Shown piece after piece: positions 16,046 through 58,680 of a DNA stretch of 64,000 nucleotides. A program made the position numbers and the translations under genes. The stretch is from Ophioderma brevispina (lineage: Eukaryota; Echinodermata; Ophiuroidea; Amphilepidida; Ophiodermatidae). Position 1 is the stretch's first letter, and every line of letters begins with the position of its first letter. The stretch covers positions 1 through 64,000 of the forward strand of contig JAMKCH010078420.1 in assembly GCA_023653785.1 (NCBI GenBank), given 5' to 3'. Below the pieces are notes generated by a model. It did no database searches and was not told the origin of the DNA. It saw only the letters and a program-made list of their open reading frames with translations.

Positions 16046-16632
16046 CCCTCGTCCGACCACGAATGATGCCCTGTCGCACAAAATAATTATGATCTAAGGC
16101 CTGTAATTTCTTGTATGTAATTGTAAGTTTGAGGTAACAATTGGATGTAACACCTTCAGGAGGGTCAGGGTGTCCCGTCAAAGTCGGAAGCTTCGGGCGG
16201 TGGTTGCCACCTGCCTATACTTTACTGTGTGAAATGCCAAAATGGTACTTATGTTACTGATGATGCTACTGTAAGCAAATACTGATAATATTTGTACTTT
16301 TTCCTATTTTTAGAGTAATAACATGTGTATGCTTACTTTGGCACCCATCATTGCCAAATAAATACCAATTTTGCTTGCATGAATGGCGAAAACCCCTTAA
16401 TTTTGGAGATTTTTCAGATACGACATCTTTTATATAAACTCTCAGTTATGACGTAACTGTGACGTAATATTGTTAACACTTGATATGTTTGTACTTCATA
16501 TGAAGAAAGGACATATGTAGCTACACACTGACACCAAACAAGATGATGTTTGTCCCTTAATTACGAAAAAATCAGGAGGGTGGTAACCCACCGGTCGTGA
16601 ATGTAGTAGAAAAACATTTGGTTGGACGAGGG
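16046..16632. mobile_element. piggyBac-like MITE, TTAA-flanked
   Basis: TTAA at 16042-16045 and 16633-16636 brackets ends reading CCCTCGTCCGACCA and, in inverse, CCCTCGTCCAACCA. A TTAA target duplication with CCCT-type termini is the hallmark of piggyBac-type elements. The interior is non-coding and includes a ggTGGCAACCACC-type word and a GACGGGACACCC-type word found in related sequences at 20.3 and 58.0-58.7 kb. Its right 232 bp form part of the tandem repeat that follows. Confidence 0.8.
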
Positions 16633-19600
16633 TTAATTTACAAGTATATAGAACTGTTCTCAGGTTTGCATCCTACGATCGCACAACAAATCGACTGAAG
16701 TACCCGAGTTATAAAATAGCCAGCACATAGGCACGGGCAGTTGCACAACGAAATTGTAGCTTCAAATTACCGGATTCCATTAAACATCTTATACCTCTAG
16801 ATATTGATTATTTAAGTAGATAATTGAATTTGATATCGGAATTGATGAACAATCCATTAACAGAAAAGGACTTGGACAGGATATTAAACCGTGATTGATC
16901 ATGCCTCAGTGCTTTGCCGATGGCTGACGACACAAGGTTTTGTCACCGGAAATTTGATCGTTTTTAACTCATGTGACGTCACATTACGTCATTATTTCTC
17001 CTTGGATCTCTCTTGAATGAAACCAGGATATTACAAATAAAAAGGTTTGCGCATGAGAAAAGCTGATAAACTGGCAAGATTAGCAGGTTGGGCAATATAT
17101 TGCGTAAATGTTGTAGAAAACTGTATACAATAAATTGTGCAATTTTAAAAATTTTACCCGCATTTGTGTAATTTATACTAATTTATACAATTTCGGGAAA
17201 AGTAAATGCCTACCCGACCCATTAACCACGTTCAGAATACCTTATCATATGGATAATGATGATTTTAATTATATATTGAACAATAGTATTTGATTTACGA
17301 TTGGGACATTTACCTTTTAAATCCATTACTATAATTATTTTTTTTTTCTTTTCAACATAATGCGTAAGGATATAATTCATCTAAGGTACACAGGTATTTT
17401 GGCATTAAAGAAATAGTTCAAAACGTCTTCATTCAAGGTTTACCAGCAATATGGTACATTTCGATGGCTATGTAAGGTTGTTACAAATTCAATACAAAAA
17501 TGGTAAGTCAACACTACATGTAATTAACCATATATCATGTCGTTCAAAAAATGAGATGTTCTGGAGGAGGAATGGATGCAAATTTTGTGATTTTGGAGAT
17601 TTTTCAGATGCGACATCTTTTATATAAACTCTCAGTTATGACGTAACTGTGACGTAATATTGTTAACACTTGATATGTTTGTACTTCATATGAAGAAAGG
17701 ACATATGTAGCTACACACTGACACCAAACAAGATGATGTTTGTCCCTTAATTACGAAAAAATCAGGAGGGTGGTAACCCACCGGTCGTGAATGTAGTAGA
17801 AAAACATTTGGTTGGACGAGGGTTAATTTACAAGTATATAGAACTGTTCTCAGGTTTGCATCCTACGATCGCACAACAAATCGACTGAAGTACCCGAGTT
17901 ATAAAATAGCCAGCACATAGGCACGGGCAGTTGCACAACGAAATTGTAGCTTCAAATTACCGGATTCCATTAAACATCTTATACCTCTAGATATTGATTA
18001 TTTAAGTAGATAATTGAATTTGATATCGGAATTGATGAACAATCCATTAACAGAAAAGGACTTGGACAGGATATTAAACCGTGATTGATCATGCCTCAGT
18101 GCTTTGCCGATGGCTGACGACACAAGGTTTTGTCACCGGAAATTTGATCGTTTTTAACTCATGTGACGTCACATTACGTCATTATTTCTCCTTGGATCTC
18201 TCTTGAATGAAACCAGGATATTACAAATAAAAAGGTTTGCGCATGAGAAAAGCTGATAAACTGGCAAGATTAGCAGGTTGGGCAATATATTGCGTAAATG
18301 TTGTAGAAAACTGTATACAATAAATTGTGCAATTTTAAAAATTTTACCCGCATTTGTGTAATTTATACTAATTTATACAATTTCGGGAAAAGTAAATGCC
18401 TACCCGACCCATTAACCACGTTCAGAATACCTTATCATATGGATAATGATGATTTTAATTATATATTGAACAATAGTATTTGATTTACGATTGGGACATT
18501 TACCTTTTAAATCCATTACTATAATTATTTTTTTTCTTTTCAACATAATGCGTAAGGATATAATTCATCTAAGGTACACAGGTATTTTGGCATTAAAGAA
18601 ATAGTTCAAAACGTCTTTATTCAAGGTTTACCAGCAATATGGTACATTTCGATGGCTATGTAAGGTTGTTACAAATTCAATACAAAAATGGTAAGTCAAC
18701 ACTACATGTAATTAACCATATATCATGTCGTTCAAAAAATGAGATGTTCTGGAGGAGGAATGGATGCAAATTTTGTGATTTTGGAGATTTTTCAGATGCG
18801 ACATCTTTTATATAAACTCTCAGTTATGACGTAACTGTGACGTAATATTGTTAACACTTGATATGTTTGTACTTCATATGAAGAAAGGACATATGTAGCT
18901 ACACACTGACACCAAACAAGATGATGTTTGTCCCTTAATTACGAAAAAATCAGGAGGGTGGTAACCCACCGGTCGTGAATGTAGTAGAAAAACATTTGGT
19001 TGGACGAGGGTTAATTTACAAGTATATAGAACTGTTCTCAGGTTTGCATCATACGATCGCACAACAAATCGACTGAAGTACCCGAGTTATAAAATAGCCA
19101 GCACATAGGCACGGGCAGTTCCACAACGAAATTGTAGCTTCAAATTACCGGATTCCATTAAACATCTTATACCTCTAGATATTGATTATTTAAGTAGATA
19201 ATTGAATTTGATATCGGAATTGATGAACAATCCATTAACAGAAAAGGACTTGGACAGGATATTAAACCGTGATTGATCATGCCTCAGTGCTTTGCCGATG
19301 GCTGACGACACAAGGTTTTGTCACCGGAAATTTGATCGTTTTTAACTCATGTGACGTCACATTACGTCATTATTTCTCCTTGGATCTCTCTTGAATGAAA
19401 CCAGGATATTACAAATAAAAAGGTTTGCGCATGAGAAAAGCTGATAAACTGGCAAGATTAGCAGGTTGGGCAATATATTGCGTAAATGTTGTAGAAAACT
19501 GTATACAATAAATTGTGCAATTTTAAAAATTTTACCCGCATTTGTGTAATTTATACTAATTTATACAATTTCGGGAAAAGTAAATGCCTACCCGACCCAT

Positions 19601-19962
19601 TAACCACGTTCAGAATACCTTATCATATGGATAATGATGATTTTAATTATATATTGAACAATAGTATTTGATTTACGATTGGGACATTTACCTTTTAAAT
19701 CCATTACTATAATTATTTTTTTTTCTTTTCAACATAATGCGTAAGGATATAATTCATCTAAGGTACACAGGTATTTTGGCATTAAAGAAATAGTTCAAAA
19801 CGTCTTCATTCAAGGTTTACCAGCAATATGGTACATTTCGATGGCTATGTAAGGTTGTTACAAATTCAATACAAAAATGGTAAGTCAACACTACATGTAA
19901 TTAACCATATAACATGTCGTTCAAAAAATGAGATGTTCTGGAGGAGGAATGGATGCAAATAT
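16401..19962 (+). repeat. Three-copy tandem repeat, about 1189-bp unit
   Basis: Units start with TTTTGGAGATTTTTCAGAT at 16401, 17591 and 18779; the third ends near 19962. By eye they differ at only a handful of bases, for example CATCCTACG against CATCATACG and T-run lengths near 17340, 18527 and 19715. Each unit consists of the right 232 bp of the TTAA MITE plus about 957 bp of flank. Each carries one perfect TGACGTCA palindrome (16974, 18164, 19352) with further TGACGTAA and TACGTCAT near-sites. No ORF beyond chance is conserved. Confidence 0.95.
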
Positions 19963-33563: not shown

Positions 33564-33634
33564 GGCTGAATAGCTCGTAGTAGAGCATTGGTCTCACATC
33601 CAGAGGTCGTCGGTTCGAATCCCGCTTAAGTCCA
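33564..33634 (+). tRNA. tRNA-Val(CAC)-like sequence, probably not functional
   Basis: The acceptor GGCTGAA pairs with TTAAGTC apart from one mismatch and one G-T pair. The D stem GCTC/GAGC is perfect, the T loop is GGTTCGAATCC, and the anticodon loop CTCACAT gives CAC. The anticodon stem has two mismatches, so this is more likely a tRNA-derived pseudogene or SINE head than a working tRNA. Confidence 0.4.
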
Positions 33635-42480: not shown

Positions 42481-42483
42481 AAA

Positions 42484-44689
42484 ACTAATTAGTCAAAACG
42501 AAAATGCTGCAATATTTGAAAAATCGGCTCATCACGATGGCCTTTATGATTCTATCTGTTGACTTCTTAACATGCATATAACAATTGCTTAATACAACGT
42601 TGTTGAACACCTAAGTAAAATCAATCATTTTCATAATATTTACCGAATGATAAAAATCAAATTTGATTTAAAAATTATAGATGACATTTTACGTTGAAAT
42701 AAACACAACGTTTTTATTCAAACTCCCAACAAAGCTCTTTACCGCCCCAGTGTTGAAATACGTAGGCCAGAGAGATTCTACGTTCATGTGACCGTACATT
42801 TGAGTGTATATACACATTTTCTTTTGCTGAAATGAAGATTCGGGGTTGTAGAATAAGAATCTGCCGCGCGCCACTGGAAATCCTGGGCGTTTTGAGAACA
42901 ATCCAAAGATGGCGTGCCATAACTGATATTTATCTATTCAATACTAATATCTAATCAAACTATGGAGTACTTCTAGAAATAAATAGGACCCAATGAACAA
43001 GTGTGTGCACTCGTAACATTAAAGTCATACTTTAATTGAAATGGAAGCAAATCCAATAATTTTAAAATACGCCATATAACAGCCACATACCTGCGTAAAT
43101 AGGAAATGGAAGTGCTAGGGTAATGGTGTTAGACCACAATAAATGCATTTCTGATACTTTAAAAATTGTACATAAGTCAATCAATATGGCATGTCAAAAA
43201 TTGTTTAAATGCTCCAAAAATCGAATTTAAAAATTAATATGGCGCAAAGTTGTCAAATACCATAGGAATTACATTTTTTCACATAAATTGCACTCAATTT
43301 ATAATTTGACACATTTTTTTATCGGGATCACCTGTATCACTTGGTTATGATCATAGGTACATTTCTAATTGTTTCATTGACACATTAATTTATACTTAAG
43401 GGTAATATTTAGAAATTTGTGTCAAATATTGTTTTGAAGATATTCACGTTTTTGGCTGCCATATTGATTGAAGGGGGCACCCGGCAGATTCCAATTCTAC
43501 ACACCCTTATCTATCACTTTCAGCAAACAAAAATGTGTATATACTCAACTTTACGGTCAGGCCATAACTTGGACCATATCTCTCCGACTATCAGACAAAG
43601 TGACCAAATATAAAAATTATCGTCGTGAACACGTAAGTGTAAAGTATCCATGGCTTTCTGGAATGCGTAAAAGTTGCGATGGCTTTATAGTCTACTAATA
43701 TCCTGGTCTGATTTGTAGTCACCTCTACACACAACACTTCTTCCACGCTTCAATCCGTTATTGTCTATGGAAAGCGGACTCAGGGATAATGTGATTCATT
43801 TACAATGTGCTTCATTGGTGTCAAGTCGGGAATCTACGAAATATTATGTCATATGCCTATTTACACTCATTTTTTACCAAGGTTCGTCGTACCCGACAAG
43901 AAAAAGGACCATGGGCAAGATACGTTTAGAGACCATGGAATTTACGTCAGGTGGCCCATTTTGTGACTCAATTAGATGGCCTATGTATTTTCAATGAATT
44001 GTCTTGCATTCATGTTTGGAATGCCAATTTAGCCAGTGTTTACTCAATGTCTGCTTACCACAAACAGAGCACCTGAAAACACCGTCACTGTGACATAGAC
44101 GTATATGGTCCATGAGGCAACCTTCATCTTGATATTGCTGCTGGCAGATTTGACATTCGTGGATCACTGCAAAAGCCTTTTGTTGGAGACATTCGTGGCA
44201 GTTACAAATGGGGAAAGAACGAGTATCACACTGCGTTGTTTATTTTGCATTTATGTCGTGCAACACCTTCTCGTCCATCCGTGCTATACTATCAAAGGTG
44301 AACAGCTTCTCACAACTAAAACAAGATTTCCCAGACAATTGCATTTTCACGTGATGCAGATATTGCTCTTTTGTGGGAAAGCGTCTTCTACAGAACCAGC
44401 ATATTAGTTTCTTAGCAAGATCGTCGTATTCTTCGCGATAATCTTTAGCGCTTTTTGTTCTTAAAGTTTTCTTACGCTGGAAGCATTGATGGACGGTTTG
44501 TTCTGATTTTCGTTTTTGTTTATGCGCAAAGGAAGCAAACAAATTGCTCTCCATAGTTTTGAAATGTAGAGGAATTTCAATTTGAGAGATCGGTCTCGTC
44601 GTATCGGATGTGAGCATACTACATACTGAATCAGAACCTCTTATGTTACATTTGCCTATGAGAGACGGTTCAGACGGATTGTAGGTGTT
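42484..44689. repeat. Tandem duplication, unit 1 (upstream copy)
   Basis: This unit recurs at about 44702-46879. From 43261 to 44689 I see no difference from 45451-46879 (offset exactly 2190). From 42484 to 43260 the match to 44702-45450 is broken by many one- and two-base indels and substitutions. The identity stops abruptly inside the zinc-finger gene at 44690, so this unit holds only the gene's 3' part. The sharp mosaic suggests an assembly or haplotype artefact or recent partial gene conversion. Confidence 0.92.
43991..44687 (-). pseudogene. Truncated 3' copy of the zinc-finger gene
   Basis: It repeats the last ~148 codons before the internal TAA (44240-44242) and the 82-codon continuation down to TGA (43991-43993), with the same in-frame stop. 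The 5' four-fifths of the gene are absent because the duplication begins within the coding sequence. It is either a non-functional duplicate or an artefactual assembly repeat. Confidence 0.8.
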
Positions 44690-46180
44690 TCAAATCGTCA
44701 ACTATAGTCAAAACGAAAATGCTCAATATTTGAAAATCGGCTCATCACGATTGCATTTATGATTCTATCTGTTGTTCTTAACATGCATATAACAATGCTT
44801 AAATAAACGTTTTGAACACCTAAGTAAAATCAATCATAATATTTACCTAATGCTAAAAATCAAAATTGATTTAAAAATATAGATGAACATTTATGTAAAA
44901 GAAACAAAACGTTTATCAACTCCCAACAAAGCTCTGTTCCGCAGTTTGAAATACGTAGTCAGAGAGAACGTTCATGTGACCGTACATTTGAGTATATACA
45001 CATTTTCTTTTGCTGAAAATGATAGATTCGGGTGTGTAGAATAAGAATCTGCCGGGCGCCACCTGGACATCCTTGGGCGTTTTGAGAACTCCAAGATGGC
45101 GTCGCCATAAATGATTATTATCTATTCAATCCTATATATATAATCAAACTATGGAGTTACTAGAAATACTATAGGACCCAATGAACAAATGTGTGGCACT
45201 CGTAACATTAAGTCATACTTTAAATTGAAAATGGAAGCCAAATCCAATAATTTTAAAATACGCCATATAACAGCAAATACCTGCGATAAAATAGAAATGG
45301 AGTGCTTAGGTAATGTTGTTAGACACAATAAATGCATTTCTGATACTTTTAAAATTGTAACATAACGTCAATCAATATGGCAGTCAAAAATTTGTTTTAA
45401 ATGCTCCAAAATCGAAATAAAACTAATATGGCGCAAAGTTGTCAAAATACCATAGGAATTACATTTTTTCACATAAATTGCACTCAATTTATAATTTGAC
45501 ACATTTTTTTATCGGGATCACCTGTATCACTTGGTTATGATCATAGGTACATTTCTAATTGTTTCATTGACACATTAATTTATACTTAAGGGTAATATTT
45601 AGAAATTTGTGTCAAATATTGTTTTGAAGATATTCACGTTTTTGGCTGCCATATTGATTGAAGGGGGCACCCGGCAGATTCCAATTCTACACACCCTTAT
45701 CTATCACTTTCAGCAAACAAAAATGTGTATATACTCAACTTTACGGTCAGGCCATAACTTGGACCATATCTCTCCGACTATCAGACAAAGTGACCAAATA
45801 TAAAAATTATCGTCGTGAACACGTAAGTGTAAAGTATCCATGGCTTTCTGGAATGCGTAAAAGTTGCGATGGCTTTATAGTCTACTAATATCCTGGTCTG
45901 ATTTGTAGTCACCTCTACACACAACACTTCTTCCACGCTTCAATCCGTTATTGTCTATGGAAAGCGGACTCAGGGATAATGTGATTCATTTACAATGTGC
46001 TTCATTGGTGTCAAGTCGGGAATCTACGAAATATTATGTCATATGCCTATTTACACTCATTTTTTACCAAGGTTCGTCGTACCCGACAAGAAAAAGGACC
46101 ATGGGCAAGATACGTTTAGAGACCATGGAATTTACGTCAGGTGGCCCATTTTGTGACTCAATTAGATGGCCTATGTATTT

Positions 46181-46429
46181 TCAATGAATTGTCTTGCATT
46201 CATGTTTGGAATGCCAATTTAGCCAGTGTTTACTCAATGTCTGCTTACCACAAACAGAGCACCTGAAAACACCGTCACTGTGACATAGACGTATATGGTC
46301 CATGAGGCAACCTTCATCTTGATATTGCTGCTGGCAGATTTGACATTCGTGGATCACTGCAAAAGCCTTTTGTTGGAGACATTCGTGGCAGTTACAAATG
46401 GGGAAAGAACGAGTATCACACTGCGTTGT
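46181..46429 (-). CDS. In-frame continuation past the TAA: C2H2 zinc-finger segment
   Basis: Directly after the TAA at 46430-46432 the same frame stays open for 82 codons to TGA (46181-46183). It contains a Cys cluster (CDTRSFPICNC, HEC). Then comes a canonical C2H2 finger, CQIC followed by QQQYQDEGCLMDH and IRLCH, with spacing C-x2-C-x3-Y-x5-L-x2-H-x4-H. A shorter finger-like CSVCGK...H...HSKH follows. A perfect finger in the exact frame of the upstream gene is strong evidence that this was, or is, its C-terminus. The same sequence occurs in the duplicated copy. Confidence 0.75.
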   Translation of the reverse strand, partial: TTQCDTRSFPICNCHECLQQKAFAVIHECQICQQQYQDEGCLMDHIRLCHSDGVFRCSVCGKQTLSKHWLNWHSKHECKTIH

Positions 46430-46456
46430 TTATTTTGCATTTATGTCGTGCAACAC
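46421..46456 (-). other. Candidate 36-nt in-phase GT-AG mini-intron
   Basis: AAG|GTGTTG at the 5' side and AACGCAG|TGT at the 3' side enclose exactly 36 nt (12 codons) that include the internal TAA. Removal would keep the frame and join the 775-codon ORF to the zinc-finger continuation. At 36 nt it is shorter than usual animal introns, so this is only a possibility. Confidence 0.25.
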
Positions 46457-48757
46457 CTTCTCGTCCATCCGTGCTATACTATCAAAGGTGAACAGCTTCT
46501 CACAACTAAAACAAGATTTCCCAGACAATTGCATTTTCACGTGATGCAGATATTGCTCTTTTGTGGGAAAGCGTCTTCTACAGAACCAGCATATTAGTTT
46601 CTTAGCAAGATCGTCGTATTCTTCGCGATAATCTTTAGCGCTTTTTGTTCTTAAAGTTTTCTTACGCTGGAAGCATTGATGGACGGTTTGTTCTGATTTT
46701 CGTTTTTGTTTATGCGCAAAGGAAGCAAACAAATTGCTCTCCATAGTTTTGAAATGTAGAGGAATTTCAATTTGAGAGATCGGTCTCGTCGTATCGGATG
46801 TGAGCATACTACATACTGAATCAGAACCTCTTATGTTACATTTGCCTATGAGAGACGGTTCAGACGGATTGTAGGTGTTAACATGTTCAACATTAATAGG
46901 CAATGTCACTGCATTTTTTTCTGAATTGTTATATGAAATGGGTTGTTGTGCTTTTGGTTGCTTCTCTACTTTGGAAGCATCGTCTTTTACTGAAACACCG
47001 CCATCTATTTGAAATGGTTTATGAGGAACTTGTGAAAACCGCTGAACTACTATTTGTTCTATAGTTTGGAATGAAGTATTTCCTGTACCTTTGTCATTGT
47101 CATTGTCCGTGTTGTAGCACATACTGATTGATGAGGTGGATTTATTACATGAACGTTCATGGATTTTACCAACTGTAACTAATCTTCTACCTACTGGATC
47201 TTTACTTGATACATCTATTATCCTATTAATAACTTTATTTTGATCAATACATTCCATATTAGCAGTTCTGATATTAGCAGTCTTTGGCAGGGAACTTCCT
47301 CTGGTCTCTGATGCATCACAACACGACGTCCCAATAAATGAATCTGTTGGTGCCTTTCTTTTGCGTTCTGTATCACGGATGGCGTCAACAGTAAGGACAG
47401 ATGCAGCAGGAAGTAATCGATCCTTATCTGGTATGTCAAACACAAAAGTGGTCGAAGGCTGATACAATGGATTAGTAATGGTTCCAAGATTAGTATGTGC
47501 GTCTAAGTCACATTCACTGATGCTATTTGATGAATGGCTTTCTGTTTTACCCGAAGTATAACAGCTAAATGTAGAACTTGGTATAATCATATTGGAATCG
47601 ATCGAACAGGAAGGATTGAAACTTTGCATAAATTCTTGCTTACTTTCCCAACTTTGAGGTAACATTGGCAACAACTCTTCATTTTCATTAAGAGAGTGTA
47701 CTTCATCAACATTATGAAATTGTGAACTGCAGTCACCAGCAATTTGTTCGCAAACCGCTGATTGAACTGTGTGTTTATAGAGATAATCACTTGATACACT
47801 AGTACCCAAAGTCATGGCAATGCCGCTATCATTATCAATATTATATTTCAACGAGGAATTTGTGTTTAAAACATTCTGACCAGTTGAACAATTAATGTTA
47901 AATGGGTCGTTCTTTCCGTCCTTATGGGATTGACGTGATACGGGTATGCATCTTTGATCAACTTTCACAATAGCCTGCAGGCCATCAGGTTTGCTGAAGC
48001 TATTGTGATGTATTCCATTTGAGCCACTTACTCCACCAGGTTTCATGGAATCTGAATTAATCAAGTAGTGATCAGTCCGATATGATGGAATAGAATTTAG
48101 TTGAGCTTCGGTACCGCTTTGAAATGAGACAGGAAGAAAATCGCTCTTTATGTCAACGGAATGCAGGGTATCATTGTCGACAAAGGAAGGCGACCAATCA
48201 TAATTGATTGCTGATGTTGTTAAGTCGAGTGGTAGAACCGATTCATTTGCGATTTTTTGGTGTGGCTGTATGGTCCTGTAAGATAGATCAAGACCATTTG
48301 AGTTCTTTTCATCTTCAGGGTTTAATTCCATATCAGTGTCGATAATACTTCGATTTAATGATAATGGCATTGAGTCATACGGCGTAGATGTTTGGACGTT
48401 TGAGCTTGAATTATTGAAACCCTTGGGAACATGCGTAGAATTTGGAGGAGTAATCCATCGCAAAACGGGAATATTGCCAAATTCTGATGGCTCTGCCAGC
48501 CGTTGAAGACTGTCATTATTTGATTCATCGGAACTATAGCGACTAGAGGCGTCATATGACCAACACTGAACCGGTGGCGTCTGCAAATTAGTACTAGTTT
48601 CGAAATCGCATGCGCCTTGATCTTTACTTCGACTAAGGTCCAGCGCATTACCCTGTTTTATATCTGGTGAAGTATCAAGTGCTTCCATAACTCGTAGGTC
48701 TAACGCTGTACCTTCCATTACTATTTCATCATTTGGACAGCCCCTTTGATAGGCCAT
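46430..48757 (-). CDS. Putative zinc-finger transcriptional regulator with PxDLS-like motifs
   Basis: This single 775-codon frame is by far the longest in the window. The start at 48757 is the first Met after an in-frame TAA at 48830-48832. The N-terminus carries ALDLR (18-22), ALDLS (38-42), GLDLS (155-159) and PLDLT (176-180). The last fits the PxDL(S/T) CtBP-binding consensus and the others are close variants. Residues ~190-640 are Ser/Asn-rich and probably disordered. Basic clusters ERKRK (464-468), KQKRK (683-687) and QRKKTLR (697-703) look like nuclear signals. The C-terminus has Cys pairs C723/C726 with H738/H739, and C749/C752, finger-like but incomplete before the stop; the same frame continues with a true C2H2 finger. 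Inferred role: nuclear DNA-binding co-repressor-recruiting factor. No orthologue is named. It may have an upstream 5' UTR exon. Confidence 0.8.
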   Translation of the reverse strand: MAYQRGCPNDEIVMEGTALDLRVMEALDTSPDIKQGNALDLSRSKDQGACDFETSTNLQTPPVQCWSYDASSRYSSDESNNDSLQRLAEPSEFGNIPVLRWITPPNSTHVPKGFNNSSSNVQTSTPYDSMPLSLNRSIIDTDMELNPEDEKNSNGLDLSYRTIQPHQKIANESVLPLDLTTSAINYDWSPSFVDNDTLHSVDIKSDFLPVSFQSGTEAQLNSIPSYRTDHYLINSDSMKPGGVSGSNGIHHNSFSKPDGLQAIVKVDQRCIPVSRQSHKDGKNDPFNINCSTGQNVLNTNSSLKYNIDNDSGIAMTLGTSVSSDYLYKHTVQSAVCEQIAGDCSSQFHNVDEVHSLNENEELLPMLPQSWESKQEFMQSFNPSCSIDSNMIIPSSTFSCYTSGKTESHSSNSISECDLDAHTNLGTITNPLYQPSTTFVFDIPDKDRLLPAASVLTVDAIRDTERKRKAPTDSFIGTSCCDASETRGSSLPKTANIRTANMECIDQNKVINRIIDVSSKDPVGRRLVTVGKIHERSCNKSTSSISMCYNTDNDNDKGTGNTSFQTIEQIVVQRFSQVPHKPFQIDGGVSVKDDASKVEKQPKAQQPISYNNSEKNAVTLPINVEHVNTYNPSEPSLIGKCNIRGSDSVCSMLTSDTTRPISQIEIPLHFKTMESNLFASFAHKQKRKSEQTVHQCFQRKKTLRTKSAKDYREEYDDLAKKLICWFCRRRFPTKEQYLHHVKMQLSGKSCFSCEKLFTFDSIARMDEKVLHDINAK

Positions 48758-49032: not shown

Positions 49033-49415
49033 TGATTATAATAATAATAATAATAGCAGAGATTTATATAGCGCCTTATGCTATTGGCCTCTAAGCGCTT
49101 TCACAAAAGGCCGCTGATCACTGTGGCCCATCTATACCATAAACCATTTCGCATCATTTCAAGGGATGCAGCAGATCGGGATCAGCGCTTTCCCTTATCA
49201 GCAAACATACATCGAGATAACCATCGTAGCCGGGACCAGCTCCCCAAATATCGCATGGGTAAATCGGGACAACCAAGCGGTTAATTTCTTTTCCAGGGAA
49301 ATTACAAAATAGCTGAATCTCACAGGGCTCGAACGCCCGCCTATACGCATGGATGAGCATATACATGAGTCGAGCGCTTACCTGATTGAGCTATCTTCTC
49401 CGCTCCATTCCAATG
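49033..49415 (-). mobile_element. tRNA-derived SINE, minus strand
   Basis: An ATA/ATT microsatellite and TTTATATAGCGCCTTATG tail lie at the left. At the right, in inverse, is a tRNA-like head with GATAGCTCAATCAGGTAAGCG (A box) and GGCGTTCGAGCCCTG (B box). It is distinct from the 24.06-kb family in its body but has the same architecture. Confidence 0.65.
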
Positions 49416-57345: not shown

Positions 57346-57349
57346 TATA

Positions 57350-58680
57350 TAGATAATCAGTCATCCATCATTGGTGACCTTCACACCACTGGCGAGTGCC
57401 AAATTGTGTAAAACGTTTTTCTATGGAGTGTGAACTGCGCACTATGATGAGATTGCTATTTATTCCGTATTGAAATACGCGTTAACACAATTTGGAACTC
57501 GACGACCCTCTCAGGTTGGTAACAAAAGTCTGAGCACTGACCCCGAACCTTACAGTACGGGTTGGCAAATAAACACTTTTCTTTCAAATCTCTATTTAGA
57601 CGAGTATATTTTATGGCCATTTTGGCTGCTAAAATGAATCTGGAATGCTGTTAAGCCTCGTCCAACCAAGGGTTCTTCTACTACATTGACGACCAAGGGG
57701 ATTTTTTTCGTAATTATGGGACAACCATCAACTTGTTTTGTATCAGTGTGTAGCTAAAGTACAAAAGTGTCAAGTTTTAACAATATGACGTCATACGTTA
57801 AAACTGAGAGTTTATTTGTAAGCTAATCTCCACAATCGACTGATTTTCGACCATTTTCGCCATTCATGCTAGCAAAATTGGTATTTATTTGGCAATGATG
57901 GGTGCCAAAGTAAACATACACATGTTATTACTATAAAAATAAGAAACAAATACAAATATTGTCAGTATTTGATTGCATTTTTTGGCATTTTAAACAGAAA
58001 AGTATACGAAAGTGGCAGCCACCCCCTACCTTCCGAATTTGACGGGACACCCCGACCGTCCTGAAGGTGATACCTCAAAAAAAAAAAAAAAAAAAATAGA
58101 TAATCAGTCATCCATCATTGGTGACCTTCACACCACTGGCGAGTGCCAAATTGTGTAAAACGTTTTTCTATGGAGTGTGAACTGCGCACTATGATGAGAT
58201 TGCTATTTATTCCGTATTGAAATACGTGTTAACAGAATTTGGCACTCGACGACCCTCTCAGGTTGGTAACAAAAGTCTGAGCACTGACCCCGAACCTTAC
58301 AGTACGGGTTGGCAAATAAACACTTTTCTTTCAAATCTCTATTTAGACGAGTATATTCTATGGCCATTTTGGCTGCTAAAATGAATCTGGCATGCTGTTA
58401 AGCCTTTTAAGAGTTTATTTGTAAGCAAATCTCCACAATCGACTGATTTTCGACCATTTTCGCCATTCATGCTAGCAAAATTGGTATTTATTTGGCAATG
58501 ATGGGTGCCAGAGTAAACATACACATGTTATTACTATAAAAATAAGAAACAAATACAAATATTGTCAGTATTTGATTGCATTTTTTGGCATTTTAAACAG
58601 AAAAGTATACGAAAGTGGCAGCCACCCCCTACCTTCCGAATTTGACGGGACACCCCGACCGTCCTGAAGGTGATACCTCC
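57350..58680 (+). repeat. Tandem duplication of a MITE-related segment, about 747-bp period
   Basis: Copy 1 is about 57350-58078 and copy 2 about 58097-58680. Both begin TAGATAATCAGTCATCCATC and end CCTGAAGGTGATACCTC, with an A run (58078-58096) at the junction. Copy 2 lacks about 155 bp present in copy 1 (about 57658-57812), a part that starts like the TTAA MITE terminus (TTAAGCCTCGTCCAACCA). GTGGCAGCCACCCC and TTGACGGGACACCCC link the segment to the MITEs at 16.0 and 20.1 kb. Confidence 0.85.

Follow-up and report, generated by a model that had tools for sequence, protein, structure and literature searches.

When a stop codon is followed, in the same reading frame, by the codons of a recognizable zinc finger, the protein may end at the stop, run through it, be made from an mRNA from which the stop has been removed, or carry a stop that is merely an error of the sequence. 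This question is raised by a gene of the ophiuroid Ophioderma brevispina, located in a window of 64,000 nucleotides (the whole stretch of DNA that was analysed) that belongs to contig C61031 (81,672 bases) of an assembly of 2.51 Gb in 65,844 contigs. An open reading frame (ORF) of 775 codons on the minus strand, with its ATG at 48757, ends in TAA (46432..46430) and continues in the same frame for 82 sense codons up to TGA (46183..46181), exactly as described in the first-pass annotation of this locus (Table 1). This tail contains the segment CQICQQQYQDEGCLMDHIRLCH, an exact C-x2-C-x3-Y-x5-L-x2-H-x4-H, followed by a second, finger-like module, CSVCGKQTLSKHWLNWHSKH (C-x2-C-x12-H-x2-H), and Cys and His together make up 19 of its 82 residues. 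Both the classical C2H2 finger and the further Cys/His clusters that had been claimed for the tail are therefore present, the spacing of the former matching exactly.

Table 1. Coordinates of the features discussed in the text (positions in the window).
Feature	Position	Strand	Basis
ORF of 775 codons ending in TAA; C-terminus with weak finger-like motifs	46430..48757	-	Open frame
TAA stop; CAA in the C12588 copy; 12-nt in-frame deletion instead in the C56849 copy	46430..46432	-	Alignments and branch assignment
AATAAA hexamer, possible poly(A) signal	46429..46434	-	From the same C-to-T change (AAACAAA to AAATAAA)
82 in-frame post-stop codons with two C2H2-like fingers	46184..46429	-	Motif, chance test, genome-wide tail matches
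TGA, end of the old frame	46181..46183	-	Sequence
Second identical ORF end, TAA and tail, within a tandem repeat, probably an assembly join	43994..44689	-	Repeat comparison

The earlier argument that a random continuation would not yield such a finger agrees with a simulation of 20,000 random 82-codon tails at the dinucleotide frequencies of the window: 109 of them were open, none contained the C2H2 motif (a pattern written after the tail had been seen) and none reached 19 Cys and His residues. Because the motif was missing from all 20,000 simulated tails, the sequence indicates that the tail is old coding sequence, former or present. Across all six frames of three complete contigs, 374,296 codons in total, the motif was seen only three times, in the tail of the window, in its tandem copy and in the same tail on contig C12588. 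When the whole genome was searched with the tail, 60 matches came up at E ≤ 1, 53 of them with E > 0.01; six are the gene's own copies and the remaining 54 are nearly all weak, mostly covering about residues 27-75 of the tail. Two further matching loci were inspected and both are C2H2 genes, one of them presumably Sall-like.

The tail resembles C2H2 zinc-finger proteins in the Cys/His spacing of both of its fingers and in its weak alignment to C2H2 arrays of the same genome; the first finger follows the C-x2-C ... H-x3-5-H spacing with its hydrophobic positions exactly, and the second has H-x2-H. Unlike those proteins, it lies below every Pfam cut-off. No Pfam family matched the protein above its cut-off, the sub-threshold matches being the second finger of ZNF451 at the C-terminus of the ORF (residues 723-744, E 0.0052, 17.2 bits against a cut-off of 30) and, as top match of the tail, zf-H2C2_2 (14.7 bits against a cut-off of 40). 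It also differs from them in having no relative in a protein database of uncertain animal coverage, searched with the 775-codon ORF at E 0.001 (with words from its first 500 residues only) and with residues 690-858 at E 0.01, the TAA being read as Gln. A single-sequence fold model of residues 720-858 had a mean pLDDT of 43.8, too poor to judge a beta-beta-alpha fold.

A six-frame protein search of the assembly returned eight matches on three contigs, with an identical outcome at E 0.001 and at E 10. The gene was found as the window ORF, as an incomplete tandem copy elsewhere in that contig, and as one copy each on contigs C12588 and C56849. A DNA search returned the same gene places together with a dispersed repeat situated immediately upstream of it, to which most of the DNA matches belong, and no further copy, intact or intron-bearing, appeared among the candidates scored (12 of 12 in the protein search, 40 of 2,830 in the DNA search). 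This repeat, about 370 nt long (49035-49404), has at least 36 further places with 95-97% identity, and it is also present upstream of the gene in C56849, apparently as a separate insertion.

The C12588 copy is 97.3% identical to the window over 49016-47803 and 93.6% over 47802-45623, differing at 70 of 2323 aligned ORF sites, and the C56849 copy is 84-85% identical over the gene. Along 13.8-52.9 kb of the window, contigs C61031 and C12588 show collinearity in reverse orientation to each other (18 chained pieces with 9.2 kb aligned, against 6 pieces with 1.5 kb in the other orientation; some pieces of the collinearity may be dispersed repeats), and they are either haplotypes of a very variable animal or the result of a young segmental duplication. 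Frame breaks are found in the ORF of both other copies, and no copy is intact throughout. The C12588 copy lies at the start of its contig, where its sequence may be less reliable, and the single-base gaps of both relatives, all less than 7 kb from their contig starts, may partly be errors. An in-frame stretch of 30 nt at codon 319, shared by C12588 and C56849 (L009 2516-2545), is absent from the window ORF (between 47802 and 47803), and was apparently lost on the window's branch.

At the position of the TAA, the C12588 copy has CAA, inside an open frame of 256 residues that runs through the site, and the C56849 copy has an in-frame deletion of 12 nt and no stop. Since the stop is missing from 2/2 copies on other contigs, the TAA would most simply be a C-to-T change in the window's copy. 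With C56849 as outgroup, carrying C, the change from CAA to TAA falls on the window's branch, a call that depends on one base beside the 12-nt gap, whose placement is ambiguous (an alternative alignment leaves no C56849 base there). Two things can be taken as shown, the absence of the stop from both relatives and the former coding character of the tail. Among the options listed in the first-pass annotation, the nonsense allele is supported by the CAA of the nearest copy and by the lack of a stop in the third. We consider it likely that the TAA is a recent nonsense change, in an allele or in a duplicate, that ends the protein early and leaves readable remains of the fingers.

Similar cases are described in the parts of PMC5100048 used here, where stops found only in close relatives were set aside as recent nonsense substitutions, which leave a coding signature without readthrough. 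The present case resembles those substitutions in having a stop in one lineage only, a sense codon in a close relative and a readable coding signature behind the stop; it differs from what these parts describe in that copies within one genome, not species, are compared, so that allele and duplicate are indistinguishable.

Selection on both sides of the stop was estimated as dN/dS, excluding codons with gaps or stops. Before the stop, this ratio was 0.45 against C12588 (26 synonymous and 44 nonsynonymous changes; Fisher p 0.0017) and 0.60 against C56849 (Fisher p 0.00015); behind it, on few sites, it was 1.21 against C12588 (1.5 synonymous and 8.5 nonsynonymous; p 0.69) and 1.53 against C56849 (5 and 31; p 0.49). 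The comparison of dN/dS on either side of the TAA that had been proposed earlier, made here with within-genome copies, thus gives a value below 1 for the ORF; for the tail, the value is not distinguishable from 1 against either relative, on counts so small that constraint could go unseen. When tail and ORF are compared, the tail has the higher nonsynonymous rate against C56849 (p 0.013), and not clearly so against C12588 (p 0.16).

Indels were also compared across the stop. Of the indels against C56849, 19 lie in the ORF, 6 in the tail and 16 in the 3' flank, and the frame is broken by 5, 4 and 14 of them, respectively; against C12588 the corresponding counts are 2 of 3, 4 of 4 and 10 of 12. 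Gaps at slice ends (a 3-nt gap at position 0 for C56849 and, for each of the two relatives, the final gap in the flank) are omitted from these counts; with them, the raw values are 5/20 in the ORF and 15/17 in the flank for C56849, and 10/13 in the flank for C12588. A pairwise alignment with other gap placement gave 5/17 in the ORF against C56849, the same number of breaks. Taken together, dN/dS and the frame-break counts indicate that the ORF shows coding constraint and that the tail is breaking up in the relatives. The substitutions of the ORF against C56849 are spread evenly across the three codon positions (94, 91 and 107), which indicates that the gene is under weak constraint overall. 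On the window's branch the frame of the tail is unbroken, with changes at 2 of 224 sites in the tail, 27 of 2283 in the ORF and 26 of 424 in the 3' flank (tail against flank, p 0.0009). Such a slow tail would be explained by a stop too young for decay, and equally by readthrough or by a base error.

Programmed readthrough of the TAA, which would yield two forms of the protein, a long one that has the fingers and a short one that lacks them, is highly improbable. In its favour, the tail has an open frame with fingers and has changed as slowly as the ORF on the window's branch. In the parts of the sources considered, animal readthrough genes (PMC5100048, PMC3840789 and PMC8417969, the last a POU/Oct factor) share with the window's gene an in-frame second ORF with a domain behind the stop. 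Unlike the genes described there, the window's gene has a stop that is not conserved, being missing in 2/2 relatives, no detectable constraint behind it (dN/dS not below 1, on few sites), no TGA-C context and no strong RNA structure, and the earlier suggestion that readthrough toggles DNA binding is left unsupported by its relatives without the stop, its tail without detectable constraint and its lack of such a structure. In the 103 nt from the stop, no strong structure was found (z -0.88), 39 of 200 shuffles folding as well. The stop is TAA followed by A and not the leaky TGA-C. As far as the parts of PMC7089771 used here go, reporters show less readthrough at UAA than at either of the other stops, and the next bases rank C, U, A, G with G418, which puts A third of four; in untreated cells, genome-wide, UAA and UGA stand above UAG. 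According to the parts of PMC5100048 mentioned above, the stop of mosquito readthrough candidates is usually a conserved TGA, and TAA stops lose readthrough more easily in both mosquito and fly. Moreover, the new AATAAA may end the mRNA before the finger codons are reached.

Removal of the stop from the mRNA, by splicing or by editing, is scarcely credible. Pairs of GT and AG that would skip the TAA in frame exist, including a GT-AG span of 36 nt that ends just before the first Cys of the tail, but the top in-frame pair scores only 0.9 bits and its donor 0.7 (rough weights), so that the RNA-processing option of the first-pass annotation comes down, for splicing, to very weak candidate sites. 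The 36-nt span is below the usual sizes of animal introns and loses its AG in C56849. Editing of UAA to a Trp codon would need two A-to-I events.

The stop is found a second time in the same contig, at 44240, within a tandem repeat of about 2.2 kb (42483-44689, corresponding to 44700-46879) in which the entire tail and the final 450 nt of the ORF, up to and including the stop, recur identically (43994-44689). From 43255 to 44689 the repeat units show no difference; all differences lie before 43255, where the outer unit departs from its partner and from C56849 by many small gaps and mismatches. This repeat probably arose when an unpolished stretch was joined on during assembly; a real duplication followed by partial conversion is the less likely alternative. 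On either reading, join or duplication, the second TAA is probably no independent support for the first. Other repeats are found in the window at 16400-19960 (about three head-to-tail units of ~1.19 kb each, 99.6% identical) and at 57349-58679 (two blocks repeated with 98-99% identity at a spacing of about 0.6-0.75 kb). The window also contains a weak Rfam tRNA match at 33564-33633 (32.2 bits against a cut-off of 29), and outside it, at 69210-70397 of C61031, there is an open frame of 396 residues resembling a reverse transcriptase, perhaps a Penelope-like one.

The probable join brings in the possibility that the TAA is itself a consensus or assembly error, the true base being C and the frame running to the TGA at 46181. 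An error would be consistent with the CAA of the closest copy, with the unbroken and little changed frame behind the TAA, and with an error-rich stretch (42483-43254) at a likely join ~3.2 kb away, under which the second TAA is no independent witness. It is nevertheless rather unlikely, given that the stretch with the TAA has no frame breaks over 775 + 82 codons, that its tandem-repeat partner matches the outgroup at places where the other copy departs from it, and that, with 70 of 2323 ORF sites already differing between the copies, one more difference is unremarkable.

A decay of the whole family, with all three copies being pseudogenes and the TAA one lesion of many, is a doubtful alternative that overlaps with a recent nonsense change and was judged apart from it. 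The window ORF is open over 775 codons with dN/dS < 1, and 14 of the 19 indels against C56849 keep the frame in the ORF, compared with 2 of 16 in the flank, all of which argues against decay; in addition, the single-base gaps near the contig starts may be sequencing errors. What points to it are the frame breaks in the ORF of both other copies, the even spread of ORF substitutions over codon positions against C56849, and the failure to find a further intact or intron-bearing copy, in a DNA search that scored 40 of 2,830 candidates.

In the preferred explanation, a recent nonsense change, the ancestral protein would have had ~858 residues, with finger-like modules before and after what is now the stop, and one C-to-T transition in the window's copy would have converted CAA (Gln) into TAA. 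Translation would now end at this codon, with loss of the last two fingers and of their function, and the finger codons would still be readable since the change is presumably recent. The same transition makes AATAAA, the sole AATAAA or ATTAAA on the minus strand from 46600 to 44900, suggesting that the transcript may be cut just behind the stop. As C12588 would be the other haplotype or a young segmental duplicate, the TAA would therefore be a segregating nonsense allele or be fixed in one of two duplicates.

A bolder proposal is that two haplotypes with one C/T difference form an on/off switch between a long and a short form of a lineage-restricted protein, with and without its last zinc fingers, affecting the DNA-binding end and adding a poly(A) signal, to which its boldest form adds low readthrough from the TAA allele; we regard it as very unlikely. 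A single-letter nonsense change is a commonplace mutation, and the one proposed here probably does not switch the protein between two forms. If the collinear contigs are haplotypes, this locus would be a natural truncation of a finger-bearing gene, and otherwise it would be of local interest only. The case illustrates clearly that a young nonsense change, through the strong coding signature left behind the stop, can imitate readthrough, and that the choice between these readings can be made from copies found in one and the same assembly.
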